From: Antedon mediterranea | Taxonomy: Eukaryota; Echinodermata; Crinoidea; Comatulida; Antedonidae | NCBI RefSeq assembly: GCF_964355755.1 | Contig: NC_092672.1 | Location: 32,732,501 to 32,796,500, forward strand | DNA: 64,000 nucleotides | Direction: 5' to 3' | Shown: positions 40,403 through 59,955 of the stretch, piece by piece | How positions within the stretch are numbered: the stretch's first letter is position 1 | Layout of the letters: every line of letters starts with the position of its first letter | Notes under the pieces: generated by a model | Seen by the model: only the letters and a program-made list of their open reading frames with translations | What the model was told of the DNA's origin: nothing | Database searches by the model: none | Position numbers and translations under genes: made by a program

Positions 40403-43400
40403 ATGAAATTGAGTCCAAGAGAGCAGGAAAGCCTTCTGGTGCATCAGACTGGTGCTTTAGCCCAGAAACGATTGGCACGTGGAACAAAACTCAACCATCC
40501 AGAGGCTGTTATGCGCGATTTGAACGATTTGCGCAATTTGAAATTGCGCAAAAAAAATCCTTGCGCAATTTGAATTGAAACATATGTTTCAAATTGCGCA
40601 AGCAACGTATTAAATTGCGCAATAATCTGCAAATTGCGCAAGGTTTTTCGACAGATTGTGAAATCATGCACATCCATATTTTTATAGTAATTTCTAAGAA
40701 TGATTCAAAATTAAAGATAAATATCGCATTTCCTTATTTTAGTAGTGCAAATATTGTTATAAGTTAGCATACCGTCGAAGAACCGACGAAGGAAAACGAA
40801 GCGGTGGTGTTCCACCAGGCGGGCGCGGCGCGGGCGGCCGGCTATACTACTCTAGCCTAGCTAGGGTCTGGACTACTGATACTGACTAGGTTACATGGCC
40901 TAGCTTAAACTAATATTAAAAACTTAAAAAGTGAGTATTAAACATTATCTTCATTGAAATGGTCTTATTTATATAATAAAAAACTAAATTTTAAACTCCT
41001 CTGCCTAGGCCTAGCCTAGCCATGTATGGGAAAATTTACAGTTCGTTTTCAAATTGCGCAAAGGTGTCATATTGCGCAAGAACTATCTTGCGCAATTTAC
41101 AAATTGTGCAGCGCAATTTAAAATTGCGCAAAGATTTTCTTGCGCAATTTGAAATTGCGCAAGTTGATTGCGCAATTTGAAATTGCGCAAAAAAATCCTT
41201 GCGCAATTTAAAATTGCGCAAGAATTCTTTGCGCAATTTCAAATTGCGCAAGGATTTGTTTGCGCAATTTCAAATTGCGCAAATCGTTCAAATCGCGCAT
41301 AACACAGAGGCAGTTGCTTTGTTGTCTTGTCAGGTAATAATAATTGATCTTAAGCAATTATTTCCTTGTAAATTATGATCCTCATCATGCATTGACTGTC
41401 CTGTCGCAATTCACTAATTCAAAATTACACAATCCAATTATTACATTTAATATTAATTAACACATTGATTAAATATTGAAATATGTAGGCCTTAGGCCTA
41501 CTACTGTACTACTGTACTAGGCTAGTATATAAGTAGGTGTTATCAATTAAATTAAGACAAGAACCGTAACCCATTCCATAGCAATAATATTGGCAAGGGT
41601 TTGAGGCTCACTCTCACTTCTTTCTGGTTGTAGAAGAGTCTTTTTGCGGATAAGGACTATCGAACCATAATATTAATAGGTCCACATACACAAAATGCTT
41701 CTTTGCGCAATTTTAAATTGCGCAAATCGTTCAAATCGCGCATAACATTTGCACTTTAAAGTAGAACCATAGTTCAGTAGTAGGCGCTAGTTCCGTTTCG
41801 CACCTGTCGTTTATTTCGACTCAAAATTGGTTAAGTAACTTTATCGTGAGTACCACACCTTAGAATTAGGCCTCAAAAATACTTTTACGAAGGAGATCAC
41901 ACAAAAAGTAAAAAATAAATCCTTTAAATTGATGAATTTACAGACGTGTTTCTCGCACATCGGTTCGTGAATTTCGCATACTCCATGTTCAATGTTGTTG
42001 TTTCTATGGAGCGCCAAAAGAGCAATCATAATATTAATAGAGGGCTAAAAACTCAGTAAATTTCGTATATTTAATGCATTTATTGGTGAAAATTACGTTT
42101 AATTTTATCATATTTTGTCAATGTCAATGCAACAAAAATATTACTGTTGATACTGTACATGGTTTTTGCAGGAGCTTTTAGGAATGAAAATCGACAAATT
42201 TATCATCATATTACATGTACTGTAGGGGTATACCTTAATCTAAATAATAGTCTTACTCTTAGGCCTAGGGTTGGTTGCTATTTGACAACAGCAAATTATT
42301 AGCAGTAAAATGTTACAGCATTTTTATTGACAAAATATATTAAAATTAAACGTGTATTTCAATAATAAATGCATTAAAAGAAGACGCATTCCACTGAGGT
42401 TTTAACCATCTATTGTTGTTGCTCTTTTGGCGCTCCATAGAAACAAAAATATTGAACTTCGAGTATGCTAAATTCGCGGCGAACGGCGTATGCGAGAAAC
42501 ATGTTTGTAAAATCATCAATTTAAGGATTTATTTGTTACTTTTTATGTGATTCTTCTTCATAAAAGTACTTATGAGGCCCAATTTCAAGATGTGGTATTC
42601 ACAATAAGTTGCTTAACAATTTGGAGTCAAAAGGAAGTCGAAATAAAAACAGGTGCGAAACGGAACTAGCGCCCAGTAGTACTACAGTACAGATAGATAG
42701 AGGAGTATAACCCTGGTGTACCAGCTCACACTTCCATTGTTAAAGCCCCATTCCCTACGTTTTTTAGATCTAATTTAAGATCACAAACTATATTTAATGT
42801 AAAAATAATACTATATGGTCCTATTGCGATAACTTTTTTCGTCTTTAAACGGTTAAAAATGTGAAAAATAAGTCGATTTTAATAATTATATAGCGGCCTG
42901 CTATAAATCCCAAAATGCATTGCGCGCGGATTGATATTTTTGTTTTTCACCTGTAATTCGCCCACTTTTCGATCGATCGTGAGGCCAAAACAAATGGAAG
43001 ACTCCTAACTTTTCAGCGAAAATACCGGGTTTTCCCCAATTTGTATCAACGGAGTCTGGCAAAAATAGAAAGACAATTAATGCAGCAACTATACAACGTC
43101 AGGCTAGGTATATAGCTCGCGTACGATGTTCGTACGTTACCGATGTTTACCAGCTAGGCCTACAAAACTAAGCCTAGCTAGGCTAGGCCTAAGACCGTCC
43201 ACGAGAGGTCGATCGCCGCGAGCTACTTAGGTAGTGCATTGTTTCTCACTTTTTATCATAATTTACCATAAAACGTACATTTAAGACAAGAAATGACATG
43301 GTTTAATGTTTTTAAAGTGATATATATGTATAATTTTCCAAAAAACGTCCAAAATTGCAGGGAAGGGGTCTTTAATGGATTGAATTGAAAGATGAAATAG

Positions 43401-46400
43401 CAATTATAAATTGCGCAAGGAAATCCTTGCGCAATTTGAAATTGTATATTTTATTTACAAATTCATTATATATATTTTAGATACAAGAATTTGTTCGTGA
43501 TGGACGTCACTCTGTTGCTGAAATCATGGATCTTGGACGTAAAATGCTTGGTAGGGGTAGTTTTACTACGGTATTCATTTAAAGTTTTAAACCATACTTT
43601 CCTGTAGAAACAACAGCTGATTTTGATCACCAAAACTTTTTTTAATAAATGGTTTCTGTGGAGCAAATTTGAACTGTTATGCAATAGTGGTCCCAGTTTT
43701 GAAAAACTGATTTATTTTGAGTAAAAATTTATGATTTTTTTACAAACTATAAAATTAAAAATATGCCCTTTGTGCACAAAGATTTCACTATCATGTCAAC
43801 AAATTTTGTTTTATGATTCATTGGGATTATTTTTCATGTTGTCCTTCCCCTATACATTGATGTTGGGCATAATGTTGGGTCAGATGTTTAAAGTCCCATT
43901 CCCTACATTTAATGTAAAAATAATATACTATATGGTTCTATTGCGTTAACTTTTTTCGTATTTAAACGGTTAAAAATGTGAAAAATAAGTCGATTCTAAC
44001 AATTTAAGCAATCTGCTATAAATTCCAACATGCATTGCATGTGGATTGATATTTTTGTTTTTCTTCTGTGATTCACCTACTTTCGATCGATCGCGAAAGC
44101 AAAACAAATGGAAGAACTGTAACTTTTCAACGGAAATACCGGGTCTTCCTCAATTTGTATTAACGAATCTGCTAAAAAAAGAAAGACAATTAATACAGCC
44201 ACTAGACAATGCCAGACTAGGCCTATAGCTAGCGTACAATGTTTGTACATTACCATGTTTACCAGCTACTGTAGGCCTACAAAACTAAGCCTAGCTAGGC
44301 CTAAAGACCATACAGGAGAGGACATTCGACTTAAGCTATTTAGGTAGTGCATTGTTTCTCTCTTTTTATCATAATTTACCATAAAGACAAGGAATGATCT
44401 GGTTTAATGTTTTTAAAGTAATATATATGCATTTTTTTTTACAAAACGTTAAAAATTGTAGGGAATGGGTCTATAGAGTATCACGGTGCTGACATCACGA
44501 CGGTAGGTGGTGCTGCATGGTTGCTAGCGCAACCAAAAATGGGGTAGTAACAAAGTGCGAGGCAGCGAGGCAGGGAAGGCATGCGAGGCAAGTCAGAAAT
44601 TTATGCGAGGCATCGTTATACCATCATCAAAAAATGCGAGGCATGATTTTATCATTTCTCAAAATTGCAAAGCAGGAAATCACCGAAATTGAAGTAGCCT
44701 AGGCCTAGGCCCGCTAGGCTAGTTTCCTTTTGCACCTGCCTTGTATTTTAACCAACTTTATCCTGAATACCACAGCTTAGAATTAGTAGGCCTACTTTAA
44801 TGAAGAAAAATCACATAAAAGTAACAATAAATCCATTAAATTGGTGATTTTACAGACGTTGTTTTTCTCGCATTTCGCACACTCAATGTTCAATATTTTG
44901 GTTTCTATGGAACGCCAAAAGAGCAAAATTAATTAGAGGGCTAAAAACTCTGTGGAATCCATTTATATTTAACGCATTATTTGGTGAAAATCAAGTACAA
45001 TTTCAATAGATTTTGTCACTGTCAGTAAGGAAAAATGTTACTGTTGATGATGTACACGGTTTCGTTAACCTTTTAAAGAATAAAATAGAAAAATTCATCA
45101 TAATATCCTTAGTAGGATGCCCTAGGTCTAGACTAGGTAGTGATGTTGATTTAGGATCGATTATTATTCTTTGAAAACAGAACAGTATCAGCAGTAACAT
45201 ATTACAACATTTTTATTGACAAATTAACAAATATATTGAAATAAAACGTGTTTTTCACCAATAAATGCATGAGAAATTGACGCATTCCACTGAGTTTTAG
45301 TCCTCTATTATCGTTGCTCTTTTGGCGCTCCACAGAAAAACAAATATTGAACATTGAATAAGTGAAATTCGCGAACAGTGTGCGAGAAACACGCCTGTAA
45401 AATCATTAATTTAAGGATTTATTTGTTACTTTTTATGTGATTCTTTCATTAAAGTACTCATGAGGTATACTTCTAAGGTGTGGTATTCACACGATAAAGT
45501 TAGTTATCAAATTTGGAGTAAAAATACAAGCGAAGGAAACTAGCGCCAGGTTTATTAGTACGTACATGGACAACAATAAATAAAAATCGTTCGTAATATA
45601 CCTAGCTTACTAAAACAGGAATAGTGTATCATTATTAAATATTACACCAATTATTATTATATCAAAATTGATTAAAGTATTTTCTACATAGGCCTCTTAT
45701 CTAGGTTAGGGCTAAGCATATTAGCTAAAGTTTAATTTTAGGACTAGTATTACAATTGCCGGACGTAAGTCTTTTTTCACACGCGCTCCAGAATTCTGTC
45801 GCAATTTTTTTCTTTGCGGCATGTTATTGGATCGGCATATCAGTTACCTTTTATTCACCGCCAGTTATTGAACTTGTCCTGGCAATCGCTGTTCACCTTA
45901 TTTGCGAGAGAGGTACACGTGTTGTTCCTAGAGACTGGAATGTCAAAAATGTCTTTGGCACGCCGCTCAGAGAGAAGTCTGTGCGTTGCTGCTGAAACCA
46001 CGTGCTATAGGGGGGGGGGGGGGGAATGCACCACAATCCTCTGAGCGGAGGGCTGAATCATTCCGCTACCTGCTAAATAGTAAAGAGGGATTTTCCATCT
46101 CGCGGGTCTACCGGATCTAGGCGCAGGGGTGTGACAAAATATTATTTTCACTCTGCTATGTTCGAGAGACATGTGAGTGAACACGCTCGAAATGCCAACA
46201 AACATTGCAGTCATTTGATGAGTGTGTCGCTATAACAATTATTGTTTATCGAAAGTTGAAGACTGTCGTTCAGATTTTTGAACCGTAGCTAGGGCACTTT
46301 TGTAAAAGTAAAATTTGACACGATATGACTTGAATGAAAAAACAATCGTTACATAAAAATAAACAACATGATGAGTGTATACACGAATCTATTTAGATAC

Positions 46401-49400
46401 GCTTGTATCGATTGATTATTAGGCCTATAATATAGCATAATAGCACGTTAAGATATGCCTCGCACCTTTTTGAAATTGTAAACTATATGCCTCGCATGCC
46501 TCGCACTTTTGGAAATGATAAAATGATGCCTCGCACAAATATTTGGCATGCCACAAATGCCTCGCGTGCCTCGCTGCCTCGCACTTTGTCAACACTCCCA
46601 AAAATGCGTTCAACCTGCCTGAGTGACTCCAAGGTCACCAATAGTTTAGAATAGGCTTATTGAAGTAGTTATTTTAAAACATAATAATTTTCAATAAAAA
46701 CAAACTAAAATTTCAAAAGATCACAAAATATATGTTTTTAATAATCTATTTATTTTTCAACTACAGTTTAAGTTAAAAAAAATCAAGCTAAGATACATAA
46801 TTTGATAGAAATACAGATCTTTACAGTTTATCAACATAGTAGAGTTGAACGCATTTTGGGTTGGCTAGCAACCATGCAGTGCCCTCTATCATTGTGACGT
46901 CACACCGTGATACTCTATATATATTATTTTTAGTTGACAATCAAATGTGTTAAATCACATAAATGCTAACAATTAAAAAACCACTGGGGCAAAATCTAAT
47001 ACTGTATACCGGTACAAATAATGAATGTTTTATATTCGTGGAATGGTACAAATAATGGCATGAGGTGAATGATGAAATATAACTTTTCATCATTCACTGA
47101 ATGACATTATTTGTACCATTCCACGAATATAAAACATTCATTATTTGTACCGGAATAGTAGATTTTTCCCCAGTGATTTTTTTAATTTTCTAACGCAATC
47201 CGTCAACAACGTCGGCTGGCGACAATTCTCAAAATGTTTACAAAAAACTGAACGTGCATTAGAGCCGTTCATTATCACCATTAGATATCACTCATTTCGT
47301 GAGATAGGGCTAATTCCAAATGACATGTAACAAATACAAAGAATGAAAAATCTCTATTTAGTCAGTATGTAACTTTTGAACAGAAACTTGAATGATCTTA
47401 TTATTGAGTAATTTGTAACTATCATCAGGGTTTAGACACGTGTTACCTGGTGTGCCTGATATGATCCAGGATGTTCAAGTTGAAGCTACCTTTCCAGATG
47501 GCACCAAATTGGTTACTGTTCATGATCCTATTGCAACAGAATTCGGTAACATTCAGAATGCGTTATACGGTAGCTTCTTGCCAATCCCTGAGCAAGATCT
47601 GTTTTTACCAAAAGAAACGGTATGCTTATTTATCATTGAATATTCATTAAAACAACGGCAAAAAACTACATTCTACATTAATTTTTTAGATAAATGTACT
47701 AAACTAGTCATTATTATTATTATTTATTCAGGCAAAAGATACATTTTACAAAATATAATACAAATCAACAAATTAAACAAACACGATGTAAGAAGAAAAT
47801 ATAAAATCATAGTCACTAGCTGCCAGGAAAGCACAAAAGCAGCCTAAGCCACTGTCACCAATTAGTCATGCTTTATTACAAGCATTGGTGCTTGTTTGGT
47901 TGGTCAACATGTAGAATAAATCCCAGATCCTGGGATTAAAGTAAGCCTGTTTAATAGTAAGCTCTTTTTAAATTCAACCAACTGCTGTTGGCTTCAGATT
48001 TCCCAATTATGACTCGTCCCCAACCCTTAAAATGTTTTTTTTTGGTATAACTTCAGAACGTCTCAGCCGACTGGGTCGAGACATCCCTGCCCAAAACGTT
48101 CTAGGCCTAAAATATCCCTAATTCATTAACATACTCAATATACAAAATTGAGATTGGTGAAAAGGCTTGAGATTTTAATTGTGTGGTATGACAGCTTGAG
48201 GTTGATTCCGTGGGACATGACATGTACTGTATATATGTTGATGATAATAATTTAATTATTTAGGAGACAAATGGACAAGCTGATGCTTTATTAGACGTTC
48301 ACCCAGGTGAACTATTACACAAAGGTTCAAATGAACTAATAGAATTGAATTTTGGACGTCGTTCAGATGTGCTAACAGTCGTCAACACCTGCGATCGTCC
48401 CATTCAAATCGGCAGTCACTACCATTTTGTGGAAGCCAATAGGTATCTTATATTTGATCGGGTTAGAGCGTACGGAATGTCCCTTGTAAGTACATATTTT
48501 ATGCATTTTAAATTTGAAATAATTTTCATGAAACCCATAATTCTACTATATTGTTGTATAATATTCTTCCATATATACTGTAATGCATGCATAATTGATT
48601 AGATAAAGAGTCTTCCTGTGAATTGTACTTCATAATGTTCTTAAATTTTAACTGAAGTTATGGGTAACTCCTTTTTATACAGAACATAGCTGCAGGAACT
48701 GCTGTAAGATTTGAACCAGGAGAATCGAAGAATGTTTATCTTGTTGAGATTGGTGGAAATAGGTAAATAGAAACCTTTGTACCTTACAACATTCTTCTTT
48801 ACATGTAAAAATAATTAAAAGTAAGTAGTAGTTACCTATGTGAAATTGTAAAAGATAAAGAAGATGGTAGATATTCAATTCAACATTTATTTCGACCAAA
48901 ATCAACATCTCATCTCTCATCTCATCTCTCATCTCATAGCCTATTTCACCCACTGCTGTGTGAAGGCCTCCTCCAGCTGTTTCCATTTAGTTCTGTTCCT
49001 TGCCGATCTTTCCCATGTTGCCGTTTCCATGTACGTTGTTATGTCGTCATGCCGTCTTCTTTTTTGCTGTCCTCTTCTTCTTCTCCCTGTCCTCGGCTGC
49101 CATTCATTCAATCTCTTCGTCCATCTGTTGTCGTCTCTTCTGGCTATGTGTCCTGCCCATCTCCATTTCAGTTCTTTGATCTTTACCATGATGTCTTTGA
49201 CTTTTGTTCTTTTCCGTATCTCACTATGCTTTACTCTGTCTCGTATTGATAGATTTACCATTTTTCTTTCCATCGCTTTTTGTGTTGTTATCAATTTTTG
49301 TTCCATCTCTTTCGTTGTTGCCCATGTCTCTGCCCCATAAACTATAGTTGTTAGAACACATTGATTGTACACCCTGCTTCTTAGTGACATGGGAATGTCT

Positions 49401-52400
49401 TGGTTGGTCAGGATATGCTTGTGCATCCCGAAGCTTCTCCAACCTGCTTTTACACGTATTAATATCTCCTCCTCTGTGGTGTTGACCATTTTCAGAGTCT
49501 GACCCAGGTATTTGTATTTGTCAACTTTCTCAATCTGGTGATTGTCTATTGTTATTGTCTCTTGAGTCAACATATATGTATACAAACAAAAAACAACAAA
49601 GTATGATTTGGTCGATAGACGACATAAAGACTCAAATAAGTCACTGTTGCTTCTCATCATGACACATAATAATTACATAGCGTATGTAAACATAAAAACA
49701 ATTTTACAATCAATCACAAAAAAAACATTTAAAAAAAAAAAAAAAAAAAGTTAACAATATGGAACGCATTAAAAGCGCTAAGTTTTTTCAAACTGTTTAT
49801 GTAGTATATGATTTTGCTAACTGCAGAGTAATTCGTGGAGGAAACGGAATCGCCGATGGAGTTGTAACTCCAGAAAGACTAAGTTCGATAAAGGAGACAC
49901 TAGAACAGTTTGGACACAAAAAACAGGTAAGACTATTTTCTATCATGCATGTATAAGCATTCATTTTTTGCATTCTGCGTTTTTAACAGTATTTTAACAT
50001 AGTGTTTTTTAAATTTGATGTATTTTTATTTTTTTTAGTTTTATTGTCTTAATTATTTTTTATTATTTTAAATGGACCAATAATTAAAAACAATCTTAAA
50101 TGCATATTATTGGAAACAAAGCTTTAAACAAATTGGTGATGTTAGAAATGTGAAACATTTTAGCCACAACATCAAACACAACCACTTTTGTAGTATTTTA
50201 GAAGCAGCACAATTAAGTGGTGATTATTGTCAATAATTTTAAATTAGAATTATTAATTTTTATTCAGGAAGAAATCTTTCAAACAAAGTTTAATTTTATT
50301 TCCCCGATGATCTATGCGCAGACGTATGGTCCGACTATAGGAGATAAGGTATGTGTTTGATTAGACTCAGTGGCGTAATGCAGAGGCCTGAAGCCCTTAA
50401 GTGGCCCTCCAACACTGAAGTACTTGGGGAGTTCTAGGCTTTTTCAACATTTTTTTTATGAAGAGGGTGGGGAAAGACACAAAGTATTTAAGCCACAGCC
50501 CAACCCCCTCCAAGGTGGGACATGTGGCAAATCGAATTTAAGTAAATGGCACCCCTACATGGTCGAAAATGGTACTCGCGCACATGAAATTCATAGTCTC
50601 ACTAGTCTGGTTGGCCTAAAGCCTGTTTAGCCCCGCCTAATCTGCGCACGTTACTTGTGTGTTGCTCTTTATAAATTCAAAGCCATTATTTTATCTCCTA
50701 TTTGTGTTATTTTGTCATATCATTTGTAATTATTTGCTTTATATTATCAGGTTCGACTTGGAGACACAAGTTTGATCATCGAAGTTGAGAAAAACTTTGC
50801 AGTGTATGGGGACGAGTGCAAATTTGGTGGTGGCAAGGTGACTACTTATTAAACCATAGATTAATTAAAATCTAAATTATCGTATAAAATGGAAAGATCT
50901 TTAATGTTTTCAATTTCCAACTTAATTTTATCTAATTTTAAGATGCACTTTCATTTAAGGTTTTTCGGGAAGGCATGGGCCAAGCAGCACACGTGACTAG
51001 TGACGTTGCTTTGGATACGGTCATCACAAATGCTTTGATAGTGGACGCTGTCACTGGTATTGTAAAAGCTGATGTTGGTATCAAGGTAAAGATATCTTAA
51101 AGAGGAACTCCGGTTTAATATATTTGTGTGCACTTTAAGAATAATATTGAAGTCAAAATTAAATCAATACCAAATACTAGGTCCATTTTTCTAGTATAAT
51201 AATAATTTCCTATTCAGGGTACCCCCATTCAGGGAACACTTTCCATTGAAACGAACGAGGGGAAATATGTTTTTAGCACTATAGCCAACCTTAAGGGGAA
51301 ATCCCTATTAAGGGGATGCTTTTCCTCAACAATGGAAAATAGATTCTATTCAAGGGACACCTCTATTTAATGGACATTTATTAAATGTCCGTCTGCGGTG
51401 TCCCCTATGGGATTTACTGTATATTATGATTGTTTTGTTACATTCTGTTACTTGTATTAAATATAATGACTTTATTATTTGTTTAGAATGGATTCATTCA
51501 TGGAATTGGAAAAGCCGGCAACCCCGACACAATGGATGGTGTAAGCCCTGATTTGGTGGTAGGTGTTGGGACAGAGGTCATCGCTGGTGAGGGATTGATA
51601 CTGACGGCCGGAGCTATTGATTGCCATGTGCATTTCATCTGTCCACAGCTTGCTAGAGAGGCGATAGCTTCTGGCATCACAACTATGTTTGGTGGAGGAA
51701 CAGGTAAACGTAGTTCCCACTAGAGACGCAACCTACACAACGTAACAAACTGCCCTTCCAATGATTGTGTTTCCCCCGCCTGCGTGGTCTGCGTAAAATA
51801 AAACATTCGATGTTTGCAGCAATGTTGCGTCAATACGTTTCGTTGGTAGTGGGAACCAATAATACTCTTGGTCTTATTATTGATTATTTTGTATTTATAA
51901 CTGTCTTCACACAAAATTGCCCTTTGAAATTTTGTTATGTTATGCTGTGTTATGATAAATATGGCATTGAATCAATGGTCTTTGAATTGAAATCTATGTA
52001 AATCATCATATCATTTTCTTTAAGGTCCGGCTACAGGAACATGCGCAACGACATGCACACCAGGACCGAATCATATCAGAAATATGATTCAAAGTACGGA
52101 TGTTCTACCATTAAACTTTGGATTCACAGGTGAGATTCTTTAAAATAAAGATGCTATTGTTTTATGCTTTATACTTTAAAAGTATTGCTTATACTTACTG
52201 TACCCCTCTGTGCAGTAAAGCGTGGTGCCCACTAGATACGCAACGTAACGCAATCTACGCAACATGAAGCGTGGTTCCCACTAGCGACGCAACGCTAGGA
52301 CGTAACGCAATGCAAGTAAATTGACCAATCACAAGCGATGGCTTATTCGCTTGTGATTGCTAACTGTCTATAACTTCGCTTGTCATTGGTTAAAACGCTT

Positions 52401-55400
52401 GCCTTGCGTTTACGTCCTTGCGTTACGTTCTAGTGGGAACCAAGCTTAAGCAAATGCCCTACTAATAATTGTGTTTGCCCCCGTCTGCGTGAAATCAAAC
52501 CTCAAATGTTTGCAGCACTATTGCATCGTCTGTTCTCACTTGTGATTACGCAATACAGCATCTTGCGTCAGTACATCGTTGCGTTGCGTTCTAGTGGGAA
52601 CCACGCTTTAATATGATGCATATATGAAGAATAATTATGTGATTGTTTTTTACTAACCAGATTGATTACAGTATGTATTTCCATTTAATAATATTATAAT
52701 GTTATTGCTTACTCATTATAGGTAAAGGTAATACGAGCAGAACAACTGGACCCGTCCCTGAACTGGAGGAACAAATTGAAGCCGGAGCAATTGGGTAAGA
52801 ATAAAGTAGATACACGTAAATACAGTATTATTGTTAGTCTACTGGAGTGCTGTACGCGAACATAACGACCTTTCATTTTTTGCCATGTGAATACAAGCTG
52901 TTGAGTCAAAAAGTGCATTCTCATATACATAATGAGCATGCGCAGAATGACTAATGGTTTAATGGTTTTAAATTTATAAAGCGCAAAATACAAATATTAT
53001 TTATGCGCTGTTTAGCACAAGTGTAAAAATAAAAAAGTTGATGTGAAATAAACCAGGAAAATCCCTAATAAACCGAATAAATTGACCAAGACAACAACAA
53101 AAAAGTCCGAAAACGGAATCTCACATCACCACACTGTTTCACTAACTTACGTCAAGACAAGCTAGCTATTAGACTCAATAGCTGCGTAGTCATTAAAAGG
53201 GTGTAGTAGTGTACATACGTCCTGTCATTTGTGAACTTTTTATATTAATTAAAATAAATGGACTTTCTTGGTTCTAGTCTTAAACTACATGAAGACTGGG
53301 GATCCACTCCTGCTGCGATTGATACGTGCCTACGCGTAGCGGAGAAAATGGACGTTCAAGTGATGATTCACACTGACACGCTTAATGAATCCTCCTGTGT
53401 AGAGCATACTATTGAAGCATTTAAGGTAATATAAAAACACTATCTACAGGGTTTAGAATGGAGAGACTACCATCTGTAGTGTGGTTACATACACTTCTTC
53501 ATTTAAGCGTGGTTCCCACTAGGACGCAAGGTAACGCAACTATGTATTGACGCAGTATTGCGTAATTACAAGTGGGAACCGACGACACAACAATGCTGCA
53601 AACATCGTAGGTTTGATTTCATGCAGGCGGGAGCAAACACAATTATTGGAAGGTCATTTTCTTACGTTGCGTCGCCAATGGAAACCAAGCTTTATAGAGC
53701 ACTGGGGTAGCACTAACATTTCATTTTGTTTAGCCATTTGGCGAAAGTCGAAATATTTTTTTTAGTCAAATCAGTTTATCTATAGCCAAAATGGCTAAAG
53801 TCAAATTTTTTTATTTAGCCAAATGAATCGGTCATTAGCCAAAATTTAAAATTTTTGAAATATAGTGGTAAAAACATTTTAGTCAATTTATCTATGTCAA
53901 CAGGTCTATACACTGTTCCCTGAACATTTTCGTAAGGCATTGAGATAAAGAACCATTGGCCGTATTCACCAATCACACTTAAGTGAGATATTTCCCTTAA
54001 ATCCTAAGGATTTCCCTTAAATCAAGAAAATATTAAGGGTTTCACTTAAGTGGTATTCACAAAGGGTTTAAGGTTAAGGGAAACCCTTAACTTGGTCTAT
54101 TTTACCCTTAACTTTTAAGGGACCTCAGAGGTCCCTTAAAAGTTCCCTTAACTATTCAGTACCTTGGTTGTGCTGACGATTCTGTATGTGCGAGTACTAT
54201 GCCTACTTGTAGATGGCCCCAGTCCAGGCTAGGTAGAGATGCTAGGCCCCATGTTGGTCTGCCCACTAACCAGCCTAGGATTCATGTTTGGTTTGAGTAG
54301 CATCTAGACCTTTTTTTGCTGATCCCCACCCATACAAATTAGTCTATGCCTATATATTGATTTATTTTTTTTGTTTTGACTGCCATTATTTTTGTGGAAG
54401 ATGGCTTCCCATTTTGTTGTAACAGAAATTAGCCCCATTCTAGTGTAGGCTAGGTAGAGATGCTAGGCCCCCTGTTAGTCTGCCCAGTAACCAGCCTAGG
54501 ATGCATATGCCTCAATACAGACAGGTTTAGGCCTACACAGAATGTTGGTTTGTTAGTAGCATCTAGGCTAGACCTATTTTTCTTGATCCTCATACAAATT
54601 AGTCTAGGTTTAATATTCATTTGTTTTTGTTTTGACTGCCATCGTCTATACATTTTTCTCTTCATCCTCCCCGTCCCCCCAACCCCTTACTCTTTTTTTA
54701 AATATGCAAATTAGTTTTAGAGAGGAAAGTGATTGGACCATAGGGGAATTTAAATCCTCTGTGATTGGACAATGGGACAACTCATGAATATTTATGATTA
54801 TTTTTACCCTGAAGTTTTACCCTTACATTAAGTGTTTCCCTTAGGTAAGTGAATCCCTTAACTCATTTGTGAATACCCCTTAAGTGTTTCCCTTTGTTAA
54901 GGGAATTCTTAAATTTTAAGGGTAAGTATTTCCCTTAGCCTAAGTGAGATTGGTGAATACGGCCACATGCCTAAATCACTGTCACTGTATGATTAAAAAA
55001 AAATATTTTTTTTGTATTTTTTTTACATGATCAAAACAATTGTTCAAACTGTTTTTAATCATACAGCATTTATACAGTTATCAATTTAATAAGAAACATT
55101 TTACAGTTTTCTAAAATCCCCTGAACGCTATGTTACTTTTGTTTTTTACGCTTGGCTGGTCATGTTTGCTTGTGACGGCTTAAATTGGGTATGCTCAAGA
55201 GGTGCGAAAGTGCAGAACCGCCGGCCTAGGCCTACAAAATTATGTACAACAACGCAACGGTATATCGTATGCTAAAAATATTGAGGAAAATTCCTAGCAA
55301 ACGAACACTCGTATTGTTGTTAAACGTAAGATAATATAGGCCAAAGCACAGAGTACACGTCTTTCCATCCCTCAAGGCTGCGCCGAAGCATTTTTGTCAG

Positions 55401-58400
55401 GGCGAGAAATTTATCCGATTATTATTTATTTACACAACAACACAGAAGCCGGCGGCCGGCCCCGCTCAGATGCACGTGTGTGTTTAGCTAAATCCCCGTT
55501 AGACTCTACCATTTCCCGCATGTTGTTTTGTTTACACTGACGCACGAGGGAAGTTTATTAAGGGTAAAATATGAAACTACATTAAATTGGAAGACTCTAA
55601 AATGCATAACGCATACATTTTTGATTTCGATAAGATTAAGACGTCATTCATCGAAGATACTATAATGTTTCTTTTTAATCTGAAAAGTACACCCCTATCG
55701 AAAAATAGACAATCCCGGTAATTAGCCGACCGTCGGCTACGTAGTCGATCGTTTGTGCAGCGCACAACACGTGATAGTTTGGGTAGACTTCATCATCCAT
55801 GTGTCGTGTAACGTCTGTGCAGTCTACCTCTCTCTCTGCTATCTCCATCTTTTTGAAATAACAAAGAGACGCCTGGTACAACGAAACAAGTTGACGAAAA
55901 ATGGAGCTTGAAGTAAACAACATGATAACGAACAAAATAAATGCTTGGAGATCGACAAATGGACCTTTTAGTTGGACTTTATGCTTTCGCCAAAATGATT
56001 ATTTAATTATCTATTTTATGATATGTCATCGCCAAAATGGCTAAAGTAGCCGTTTTATTTTTCGCCAATCTAGAAACGTTTTCGCCCATGGCGACTTGGC
56101 GATCGGCCAGTGCGAGCCTAGGAGCAGACAATTAAAGCATGTGATTTTGTGAGTGAGTTTTTATCTTGCATAAGTGTAACATTTAATATACGTATGTACT
56201 ATCTTCAGGGACGTACTATTCACACATACCATTCAGAAGGAGCTGGTGGTGGCCATGCACCAGATATCATCAAGGTGTGTGGTGAAAAGAATGTGTTGCC
56301 ATCATCTACCAACCCAACCCGACCCTTTACCAAGAATACTATAGATGAACATCTGGATATGCTAATGGTGTGTCATCATTTAGATAAGTAAGTAGGCCCA
56401 ACATGACCTTTTACCAAGAATACTATAGATGAACACCTGGATATGCTAATGGTGTGTCATCATTTAGATAAGTAAGTAGGCCCAACACGACCTTTTACCA
56501 AGAATACTATAGATGAACACCTGGATATGCTAATGGTGTGTCATCATTTAGATAAGTAAGTAGGCCCAACATGACCTTTTACCAAGAATACTATAGATGA
56601 ACACCTGGATATGCTAATGGTGTGTCATCATTTAGATAAGTAAGTAGGCCCAACTCGACATTTTACCAAGAATACTATAGATAAACACCTGGATATGCTA
56701 ATGATGTGTCAACATTTAGATAAGTAAGTAGGGCCAACTCGACATTTTACCAAGAATACTATAGATAAACACCTGGATATGCTAATGATGTTTCATCATT
56801 TAGATAAGTAAGTAGGTCCATCTCGACCTTTTACCAATAATTCTATAGATGAACACCTGGATATGCTAATGGTGTGTCATCATTTAGATAAGTAAGTAGG
56901 CCCAACTTGACCTTTCACATAGATGAACACCTTGATATGCTAATGTATGTCATCATCTAGACAAGTAAGTAGAAGGTAGGTGGGGCCGATGCGACCCTTT
57001 ACCAATAATAATATTATATACCATTTAGATAAGTAAGTAGAATATGTATTATTGTATTGTTTCGAAATTACATTCAAGCTACTTTTGTTTAATTCGCATT
57101 AGGAATTTAAAGGAGGATGTAGCATTTGCTGAGTCCAGAATCAGAGCAGAAACAATCGCAGCTGAAGACATTCTACATGACATGGGTGCAATTAGCATGA
57201 TTTCGTCTGATTCGCAGGTAAAGTTTTACAAAGAAACAAACGGAGTTCTTATGTGTCATCTACAGTAGTTTAAGTGCTAAAGCTCTGTCTACTATCAAAT
57301 TTTATGTGTGACAAAGAAATGTGATGTGCCCATAATATGAACACGATGATGTCATATCACTACCATTTTAAGCATATCACTACCGTATTTGGGCACATCA
57401 CACTTTTGTTGTCAAATTAGTTTGATAAGTGTAGACAGATCTTAAAACTGAACCGTACTACTTTGTGAAAGTTAGAAAACTTAAACCACTCCTTGGCAAT
57501 ATAATCTGTGTTAATATGATTTGTTTTTGTTGTTTATGGTGATCGTATATAGGCAATGGGTAGGATTGGTGAAGTGATCGGGCGAACTTGGCAAACTGCA
57601 GATAAGATGAAAATATTTCGAAAAAGACTCAACGAGGAAACTGTAAGTTCAGTAGAATCTCTCCTTTCTGTACACCGCATATTATAGATAAACTTTGTTG
57701 TGTACCCTTAGGGGTTAACTGTAAATGTTATAATAATGTACTTTTGTTTTAATAGTCTATATGAAAATACAATTAAGTATTTCTTTATTCAATTGTCTTT
57801 GTAGGGTGATAATGACAACTACAGAGTAAAGCGATATATTGCCAAATATACCATTAACCCAGCTATTGGACATGGTATGAGCCATCTGATTGGTTCAGTT
57901 GAGGTAGGCCTAAATAAATACTTACTTTTTATGTTGTCTTTTATGTGAAGATTTTGTACCTGTGATCACCAAACATACTAAAGTGATATATTCCTTTAAA
58001 GATGCATTGTCCCCCAAAAACATGAAAAACTGAAAATTAAATCAGACTTTGAATAGGTTATTTTGTAGTTTTAGTAAAGTGAATCACTTCCGTAGGGCAG
58101 TTTTTTTTAGATAAATAAATTTGGATAAAGATCCAATTTTTCGTCAAAGTGGATAACTATTAAGTGACATTAAAATTCATATTCAACAAAAAAAAGTAAA
58201 CAATTAATTTTCAGGAGGACAATACATCTTTAATAAACACTTTACGTAAGATATGTCTTTATGTCATTACCAGTTTTTTTCACTAATAGCTAGCTGTTTA
58301 AATGTTAAGTGTTTCCCTTAGCCTAGTGTGAATACAGCCACAGTATCCTAATGCTCTGAGAGCGATTTAATATTGTTTACTTTACATTTTTCAGTGTAAA

Positions 58401-59955
58401 AAACTAGCCGATTTGGTTCTGTGGAAGCCAGCGTTTTTTGGTGCTAAGCCAGATATGATTATCAAAGGTGGACAGATAGCCTGGGCTCAGATGGGTAAGA
58501 TATAGTTTATGGAATTTATGAATCTTCCACAGACATGGGGTGTGCACCAGTAGTGGATCTAGGTTCTCAAATTGCTACTGAACCTAATTTCCTATCATTT
58601 GCATATGCATTATGAATGCCCCTCTTCATATCTGTAGTAGATGTGCACATTGAACGCGGACATAATATGGAAGGCCTACACAAACTTCTATAGCCGTTTT
58701 CTGATATCCAGCACAAATTATACGATCAAAAAACAATTATAATTGGAACATTTAATAATTATATTGTACACATATTGTTATTTGTATCCTAGGTATGCCA
58801 AACGCCTCGATTCCGACTCCAGAACCAGTAAAAATGCGAAAGATGTTTGGCGCTTACGGCAAATCAGTCGGTGAATCTTCAGTGATATTCGTATCCCAAG
58901 CCGCAGGTAGTGCAATCAAGGAAAAATATGGAATCAACAAACGTGCCGAACCAGTTCGAGGGTAAAAAAACAAATTAAAATATAAACAGCCCCAATAAAA
59001 AATGTATATTTTACTGATTTGTTTTACATTTTTAATAATTAATTTTTAATAATAACGCATAATTAACATAACAATAGTATTATACAGTAGTAGAAATTAA
59101 ATACAATTAAATCTCTGTCTACACTATCAAACTTTATGTGACAAAAATATGTGATGTGCCCATATATGGACATGATGATGATTGTCATAGCACTACCATA
59201 TTTGGGAATATCACTAACATATTTGAGCACATCACACTTTTTTGTCAAACTATTTTGATAGTGTAGACAGAGCTTAAGAAGACAATGATCATACAATAAT
59301 ACGTAATGCTACTGCTGATAAGCGGTCGGGGTGGAATAATCAGGAGATATGCATGGACTTCCTAGGGCTGGAATATAATATGTGTTTGGGGTACAGAATT
59401 TGAAAGTTTTACTGTTCAGTTTTTACAATAATTCTATTAATATTATATTGACGTTATATTTTACAGATGTCGGCATTTGACAAAACTTGACATGGTACTG
59501 AATAACTATCTTCCAGAAATTACTGGTATGTAAATATGATACGATATAAATCCAAAAGCAAAATACTGAAAAATGACAATGCTGTGAGTATCAGTGGCTG
59601 GATCTCAATGGAGATACAAAAAAAAGCGAAAAACTAAATCAAAACGATAAAGTAAAACAGCCAGAAAAGTTAGCATAGCTTTCGGGCAACACTAGCCCTT
59701 CATCAGTGCACTATGATACGATATAATATACATTTTATTGAAGAAGTATAACTTAAGACCGTGTTTCCGCATCCGTAACAAAAATTACTGAGTTTTTATA
59801 CCATCTCTATTTTTTATTTTTCAGTGAATCCATCCACGTACAAAGTACACGTTCGAGATCGAGTTGCCAGGGATGAGGAAGAAAAAGAACCAGAGCATTT
59901 GACTTGCCCTCCGGCCAATCGGTTGGCATTAGCTCAAAGATACTTCCTGTTTTGA
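40403..59955 (+). CDS. urease, fused gamma-beta-alpha chain (urea amidohydrolase)
   Basis: About 22 coding exons (40403-40507, 41310-41333, 43481-43550, 47429-47619, 48264-48485, 48683-48762, 49827-49926, 50268-50348, 50751-50837, 50960-51085, 51487-51703, 52025-52129, 52722-52794, 53278-53425, 56209-56387, 57103-57217, 57553-57642, 57805-57903, 58395-58494, 58793-58961, 59467-59525, 59825-59955) give 856 residues, close to plant ureases (~840). Gamma part: MKLSPREQE...[20 protein letters not shown]; beta part: [13 protein letters not shown]; alpha part from [20 protein letters not shown]. Bi-nickel ligands are visible: DCHVHF (H409, H411), carbamylated lysine in GLKLHEDW (K496, H498), H525 in MIHTDT, H551 in HTYHSEG, and Asp in SSDSQAMGR. 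The flap MVCHHLD is present too. It hydrolyses urea to ammonia and carbamate. Exon 1 is interrupted by a transposon that may be spliced. Confidence 0.95.
40507..41304. mobile_element. 798-bp inverted-repeat transposon inside the first urease coding exon (candidate intron)
   Basis: Termini TGTTATGCGCGATTTGAACG and CGTTCAAATCGCGCATAACA are inverted and extend through palindromic TTGCGCAATTTGAAATTGCG units, of which at least eight copies occur inside. A 7-bp duplication CAGAGGC flanks it (40500-40506 and 41305-41311). The interrupted codons [11 protein letters not shown] are contiguous urease gamma sequence. Unspliced, the frame stops at 40571-40573. GT at 40508-40509 and AG at 41308-41309 would remove it in frame, adding one Ala. 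A solitary related end lies at 41702-41747 and a fragment at 43405-43440. Confidence 0.85.
41783..42673. mobile_element. 891-bp inverted-repeat DNA transposon (urease intron)
   Basis: Ends GGCGCTAGTTCCGTTTCGCA and GCGAAACGGAACTAGCGCC, flanked by an 8-bp duplication CAGTAGTA (41775-41782 and 42674-42681). The inverted arms are about 270 bp and include tttctatggagcgccaaaag. No transposase. A diverged second copy is at 44711-45549. Confidence 0.88.
42741..43375. repeat. dispersed ~630-bp repeat, copy 1 of 2 in the urease introns
   Basis: Begins agccccattccctacg, contains aaacggttaaaaatgtgaaa and ataccgggttttcccc, and ends gggaaggggtcttta. It is directly similar to 43887-44471 (begins agtcccattccctaca, ends agggaatgggtct). 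The two ends are inverted (cattccct / agggaatg), so this is probably another inverted-repeat element. Confidence 0.75.
43887..44471. repeat. dispersed ~600-bp repeat, copy 2
   Basis: Same order of motifs as 42741-43375 with scattered substitutions and small deletions. It lies in the large intron between the urease exons ending at 43550 and starting at 47429. Confidence 0.75.
44472..46919. mobile_element. 2.4-kb inverted-repeat element with TGCGAGGCA repeats, carrying a nested insertion
   Basis: Ends TATAGAGTATCACGGTG and CACCGTGATACTCTATA, then an inverted ggttgctagc / gctagcaacc pair. Subterminal clusters of tgcgaggca (left, 44558-44645) and tgcctcgca (right, 46455-46590) are inverted. The 891-bp family copy at 44711-45549 sits inside. 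A 16-G run lies at 46011-46024 or slightly beyond. No transposase is recognised. Confidence 0.7.
44711..45549. mobile_element. diverged copy of the 891-bp element, nested
   Basis: Shares gcgccaaaagagca, gctcttttggcgctcca, gtttttctcgcattt and the terminal tagtttcc / ggaaactagcgcc with 41783-42673, but with worn ends. Confidence 0.7.
46982..47175. mobile_element. 194-bp hairpin MITE
   Basis: Near-perfect palindrome: arms CACTGGGGcAAAATCTA... / ...TAGATTTTTCCCCAGTG, continuing through ggtacaaataatgaatgttt and its inverse. The centre is near 47080. It lies about 250 bp upstream of a urease exon. Confidence 0.85.
48883..49580 (-). mobile_element. 5'-truncated RTE-like LINE, 3' end of ORF2
   Basis: The minus strand encodes the polymerase C-terminal part: [52 protein letters not shown] and [16 protein letters not shown], then a stop at 48941. 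It is followed by a (gatgagat)n-type short tandem tail (48905-48940) instead of poly(A), as in RTE elements. Antisense within the urease intron between exons ending 48762 and starting 49827. A related fragment lies at 61-240. Confidence 0.85.
51707..51867. mobile_element. MITE (gcgtggttcccactag family) at a urease splice donor
   Basis: Starts cgtagttcccactagagacg, three bases into the intron (donor at 51704), and ends cgttggtagtgggaacca. Only the first bases of the donor are therefore non-element sequence. Confidence 0.65.
52213..52612. mobile_element. nested pair of MITEs (gcgtggttcccactag family) in a urease intron
   Basis: An outer pair of ends (agcgtggtgcccactagata at 52218; ttctagtgggaaccacgctt to 52609) encloses a complete inner copy (agcgtggttcccactagcga ... 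ctagtgggaaccaagctt, about 52268-52446), nearly identical to the copy at 21983-22149. Confidence 0.75.
53503..53695. mobile_element. MITE (gcgtggttcccactag family), diverged copy
   Basis: Begins aagcgtggttcccactagga and ends caatggaaaccaagcttta, with ttaa-like flanks. In the urease intron after the exon ending 53425. Confidence 0.65.
53958..54964. mobile_element. 1.0-kb inverted-repeat element, GGCCGTATTCACCAATC termini
   Basis: Ends GGCCGTATTCACCAATC and GATTGGTGAATACGGCC are perfectly inverted, followed by arms rich in aagggaaacacttaag words. The interior has an imperfect direct repeat (aggctaggtagagatgctag at about 54220 and 54448). No transposase. A solo end relic lies at 58305-58340. Confidence 0.85.
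54965..56208. other. urease intron remainder, no gene seen
   Basis: AT-rich with a CpG-containing stretch at 55440-55810. Short gccaaaatggctaaagt words occur near 53790 and again at 56030, hinting at a further degraded repeat surrounding the element above. Confidence 0.35.
56310..57035 (+). repeat. 84-bp tandem array copied from a urease exon end with its splice donor
   Basis: The last ~76 bp of the urease exon ending at 56387 plus its donor (gataagtaagtaggccca) recur at a strict 84-bp spacing: donors at 56388, 56472, 56556, 56640, 56724, 56808 and 56892. Two worn copies follow near 56965 and 57032. Every full copy retains coding sequence for the active-site flap region and an aa|gtaagt donor. 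Use of a distal donor would read into TAA directly. Confidence 0.92.
57279..57444. mobile_element. MITE, GTCTACACTATCAAACT family (copy 9)
   Basis: Ends aaagctctgtctactatcaa and ttgataagtgtagacagatc, in a urease intron. Confidence 0.85.
59109..59276. mobile_element. MITE, GTCTACACTATCAAACT family (copy 10)
   Basis: Ends aatctctgtctacactatca and ttttgatagtgtagacagag, in the urease intron before the exon at 59467. Confidence 0.9.

Follow-up and report, generated by a model that had tools for sequence, protein, structure and literature searches.

A transposon inside exon 1 of a urease gene

The window analyzed here, a stretch of 64,000 nucleotides from the crinoid Antedon mediterranea, carries a urease gene on its forward strand at positions 40403–59955. 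The gene is modeled with 21 exons and 20 introns and encodes fused gamma, beta, and alpha domains. Its first exon is split by a non-autonomous inverted-repeat transposon with Ginger2-like ends, 798 bp in length (40507–41304). The 5′ part of the exon (40403–40506, forward strand) comprises the start codon and gamma-domain residues MKLSPRE...HPEA, and its translation matches positions 1–37 of PF00547 with 44.5 bits. The 3′ part (41312–41333, forward strand) ends at a genuine donor, CAG/GTAATA, at 41334. The element thereby parts the urease codons HPEA and VALLSCQ, and is flanked by a 7-bp direct repeat, CAGAGGC, with a left copy at 40500–40506 and a right copy at 41305–41311. The original prediction described just such an inverted-repeat element within the gamma exon, bordered by a perfect 7-bp repeat, and we confirm both features.

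The first and last 50 nt of the element form terminal arms that are 98% complementary, while its interior holds many TTGCGCAA repeats. It has no transposase-sized frame; the longest stop-to-stop frame touching it is 86 amino acids. When the element and one copy of the 7-bp repeat are deleted by script, HPEAVALL is regained and the gene encodes 850 residues with no internal stop. This empty-site protein aligns with the PDB ureases 4g7e (residues 1–817) and 3la4 (residues 1–818), both of them plant ureases. Two other accounts of the split exon were rejected. A pre-existing intron that the element later struck is ruled out, because only the 7-bp repeat lies between the conserved exon halves. A start codon supplied by the element is ruled out as well, as no ATG occurs in the open frame (41181–41310) that continues to the 3′ segment of the exon.

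A domain search of the 354-Mb assembly places urease gamma and alpha at this locus only. Among the urease maturation proteins, UreF has one exon-sized match elsewhere in the assembly and UreD has two. Since these matches are present and the urease frame is intact outside the insertion, the urease pathway seems to have been kept, a point that speaks against a disabled urease.

Two further repeats lie within the gene. A solitary right-end piece of another member of the transposon family occupies 41703–41747 in intron 1, ~400 bp past the insertion. In addition, the 3′ end of exon 14 and its splice donor (CATTTAGATAAGTAAGTAGG) recur in tandem in about eight copies with an 84-bp period (56313–56972), giving a row of identical donor-site copies.

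The transposon family and its target sites

A search with the 33-nt terminus, allowing at most one mismatch, returned 338 + 340 genome matches, or roughly 340 copies on the assumption of two ends apiece. We examined 116 loci: L001–L004 and 32 further best matches to the urease element, 40 loci from contig C1, 31 loci out of the top 40 matches for a longer subtype, and nine loci picked for atypical flanks. Excluding L003, L044, and L057 left 113 copies with both ends.

Target duplications in these 113 copies are mostly 4 bp long (87 copies, with 8 more showing one mismatch) and less often 5 bp (13 copies, plus 1 with one mismatch); 3 copies have neither, and the urease copy alone has 7 bp. Thus, 109 of the 112 non-urease copies carry a 4- or 5-bp duplication, some with a mismatch. 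All nine atypical-flank picks are among the 113, and eight of them have 5-bp duplications; without the nine, the same classes number 86, 8, 5, 1, 3, and 1 (n = 104). One of the 87, L018, also shows a 7-bp match, but it lies in a CTA repeat, and a 4-bp duplication is enough to account for it.

The 4-bp target profile, taken from 61 copies, is T-R-[YATR-like]-Y-A, and a purine before and a pyrimidine after the duplication occur in 82 of the 87 copies, so the family shows an RTATAY preference. Bao et al. 2010 (PMC2836005) report TGTNR ends, 4-bp duplications, and an RTATAY target for Ginger2, as well as 5-bp duplications for TDD-4 and TDD-5; PMC10045372 gives 4 or 5 bp for Ginger2. The urease element starts with TGTTA and ends with TAACA, in agreement with TGTNR, and its 50-nt arms stand at the lower limit of a terminal inverted repeat length of ~50–180 bp. 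On the basis of these ends, duplications, and targets, we call the family Ginger2-like and non-autonomous; elements of this kind would be moved by an integrase-type DDE transposase with matching ends. The family resembles Ginger2 and TDD elements in its TGTTA ends, its mostly 4-bp duplications with a 5-bp minority, its AT-rich RTATAY-type target, and its long terminal inverted repeats, whereas the urease element differs from them in its lack of a transposase, its 7-bp repeat, and a site without RTATAY.

Several features of the wider family were also observed. Among the listed places (100 of 106), 18 end pairs lack a T at −6 on both sides, and 13 of these, judged by their flanks, have 5-bp duplications (CCTAG, CATAG, CAACT, TAGGC, and others). 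The family thus has a second way of integrating. Two copies, L030 (C1) and L045 (C4), each with a 5-bp duplication, occupy the same position in another repeated sequence (GGCATAACAGGG/TATTCCCC), which suggests a hot site; an RNA-family search on these two loci gave 83 matches, with 0 at gathering score, and was taken to be uninformative. Two copy pairs, L078/L079 (C9) and L090/L094 (C6 and C10), have flanks in common, and for this reason their surrounding DNA was probably duplicated after insertion.

An irregular duplication and an identical sister copy

The original prediction described the 7 bp at the urease site as a perfect target duplication. Seven base pairs is not the length usual in the family, which is 4 bp (87 of 113). 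The urease copy is the only one of the 113 with a 7-bp duplication and no family target motif, its site having neither RTATAY nor a 4- or 5-bp duplication. Such a duplication points to irregular integration: the cut may have been staggered more widely, or an excised element may have been caught at a break that had a 7-nt overhang. More than one duplication length per family, together with TGT...ACA ends, is a likeness to IS481EU elements, for which PMC10045372 gives long duplication classes of ~15 and 25 bp from parabasalids; the urease family differs in having one 7-bp duplication against a background of mostly 4 bp.

A pattern search for one variant of the urease copy located a sister copy at C4:900386–903669. 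The two are the same at every base, over 489 + 315 positions that jointly cover all 798. The sister has an ordinary duplication, TATA. We therefore dropped a templated insertion from a CAGA-flanked copy, since the flank of the sister was evidently not copied to the urease site. The motif CGCGCATAACACAGA has four occurrences in the genome including the urease site, the other three having been compared only partially. Within the sister lies a 2,480-bp insert (C4:900875–903354; L117/L118), whose junctions read TTTAAAGATGTATT...AATACATCTTTAAA, as those of a TTAA-type element with AGATGTATT ends would.

Relative to 46 other copies of the 799-bp class, the urease copy seemed to have five private changes, and on that account it would have been one of the older members. 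This was rejected, as all five changes are shared by the C4 copy. The absence of any difference between the two sister copies over 798 bp indicates that the urease insertion is very recent. In simulations with 0.00125 substitutions and 0.0003 indels per site, the frame stayed intact with a probability of 0.47. With an insertion this young, the intact state of the rest of the gene says little about function.

An identical copy elsewhere, along with a 7-bp repeat and a target that depart from the family rule, could also be signs of an assembly or haplotype-merging error, with the insertion present on no chromosome. We regard this as extremely unlikely. Both ends of the element are complete, and its exact flank duplication, whose removal restores a conserved motif, is what a real insertion leaves. 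Furthermore, the C4 sister is split by its insert and flanked by TATA; thus, the urease copy is not simply this copy misplaced.

Splicing and the fate of the urease transcript

The original prediction proposed that the element may act as a new spliceosomal intron, with its donor at the second base of the element and its acceptor in the right 7-bp repeat. The sites are in place: a GT at 40508–40509 and an AG at 41308–41309, both on the forward strand, whose joining gives HPEA-A-VALL, with the frame exactly restored and one alanine added. In favor of this proposal, the gene model is otherwise intact, and Gozashti et al. 2022 (PMC9860276) describe introners that use one site of their own and one from the duplication, or that add codons. 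The urease element is like an introner in being a non-autonomous inverted-repeat DNA element in an exon, whose GT is its own and whose AG comes from the duplication. It differs in that its splice sites score at chance level and 3 of 113 copies were recognized in exons; in a survey of 835 genomes of animals and land plants, the same paper reports introners in two groups only, both of them animals. Transposons in exons can also be removed wholly or partly by splicing, as cited in PMC4120734 for Tc1 in Caenorhabditis elegans and dSpm in maize A2. These cases share with the urease element, which is known from sequence alone, a location in a coding exon and possible cryptic splicing.

Splice-site scores argue against the proposed intron. 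Matrices were built from the 20 urease introns, a number that limits them, and donors were scored both with and without general animal frequencies. The proposed donor, GCT/GTTATG, scores −3.71 where the weakest true urease donor scores 4.04 (leave-one-out), which bears out the weakness already noted in the original prediction, and it is matched or beaten by 74% of the 3,570 GTs on the forward strand of the window. Nor does GTTATG fit the U12-type donor consensus. The proposed acceptor scores −3.48 and is matched or beaten by 81% of the 3,444 AGs in the window; the weakest true acceptor scores −1.91 (leave-one-out), but the acceptor matrix discriminates poorly, as 67% of AGs equal or exceed even this value. 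By matrix score, both sites are thus no better than a random GT or AG. An AG two bases upstream (41306–41307) is better, at −1.19, but breaks the frame. The interrupted exon offers 12 GT/AG pairs that would keep the frame; the proposed one comes 10th, with nine of the other 11 scoring higher.

The geometry of the pair is also readily met by chance. With a 7-bp duplication, an element-borne GT and a duplication-borne AG would restore the frame at 285 of the 2,513 positions of the urease coding sequence (11%); with a 4-bp duplication, at 145 of 2,513. The presence of a frame-restoring pair is therefore weak evidence for an intron. In addition, in the predicted RNA fold the inverted ends pair into a long near-perfect stem (z = −17, 20 shuffles) that takes up the donor and the bases immediately 5′ of the acceptor, with the acceptor AG at the foot of the stem or just beyond.

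Copies in other exons show no such arrangement. Exons were sought by reading, by eye, the longest frames across joined flanks for 25 of 73 copies and, in a second set of 40 copies with two frames each, the longest 40; and by ranking all 113 by codon score and inspecting 22. This low-power scan recognized three of the 113 copies in exons: the urease copy, L006, and L073. In a trypsin-like gene (PF00089 Trypsin, E = 5e-7, above the Pfam cut-off), L006 (C1:3589779–3591177) lies 15 bases into an exon; its 5-bp duplication reads CGGTA on the coding strand. In L073 (C7:26259709–26261109), a coding-like exon has an open frame across the join, with a weak match to Cupin_8 (E = 0.022, below the cut-off) and TTAG before the element and TTAC after it; against solved structures, this exon gave no JmjC-type match, the best hit (E = 0.13) being unrelated. 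Nine other high-scoring peptides besides that of L006 had no Pfam match. By codon score, L073 ranks 46th of 113, and among 339 control points placed in the flanks the top scores equal those at the junctions, so that codon score alone proves nothing.

Past the element, one must go 21 bases in L006, and about 30 in L073, to reach the next AG on the coding strand; in both, it is outside the duplication. Therefore, neither copy fits a scheme of element GT and duplication AG, and insertions into exons occur regardless of splicing.

In light of these results, it is very unlikely that the urease element became a working intron in one step, by pairing a Ginger2-like GT with the AG of an unusually long 7-bp duplication to leave an active urease with one extra alanine. 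If it were spliced, however, the birth of an intron would have been caught young and segregating, with an identical sister copy known.

Cryptic sites might instead allow a partial rescue, for example from 40439 to 43481 or from 40452 to 41308, yielding a weak or altered urease. The sites involved are better than the proposed pair and keep the frame: the two donors score 3.6 and 3.0, and the exon 2 acceptor 9.4. The first donor, CTG/GTGCAT at 40439–40440 on the forward strand (score 3.6), joins exon 2 at 43481 in frame with the loss of gamma residues 13–42. However, both donors fall below the weakest true donor (4.0, leave-one-out), and both junctions remove gamma-domain residues that align with solved ureases. 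We consider such a rescue unlikely, though less so than the proposed intron.

The original prediction had left open a functional new intron or a polymorphic null allele. The weak splice sites, the single locus, the zero divergence from the sister copy, and the fact that L006 and L073 have no AG in the duplication copy to the right of the element favor the null allele over the intron. Our preferred reading, which we hold to be probable, is that a very recent Ginger2-like insertion disables the sole urease gene found, giving a null or near-null allele that is likely to be segregating and has no useful splicing. The non-autonomous Ginger2-like transposon has very recently entered exon 1, and transcripts, which we infer are not usefully spliced, would continue past HPEA into element sequence and reach a stop once 56 residues have been encoded; the in-frame stop that the original prediction expected without splicing does lie at 40571. 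Because of this early stop, the allele is most likely null or near-null. The insertion is probably still polymorphic in the population.

These results also carry a warning: frame-restoring GT/AG pairs around insertions are common by chance, since with a 7-bp duplication about one position in nine of this coding sequence would give one. As it likely stands, the locus is a single-copy urease that was knocked out recently and naturally by a family with near-identical copies, a case useful for genotyping and for dating a burst of transposition.
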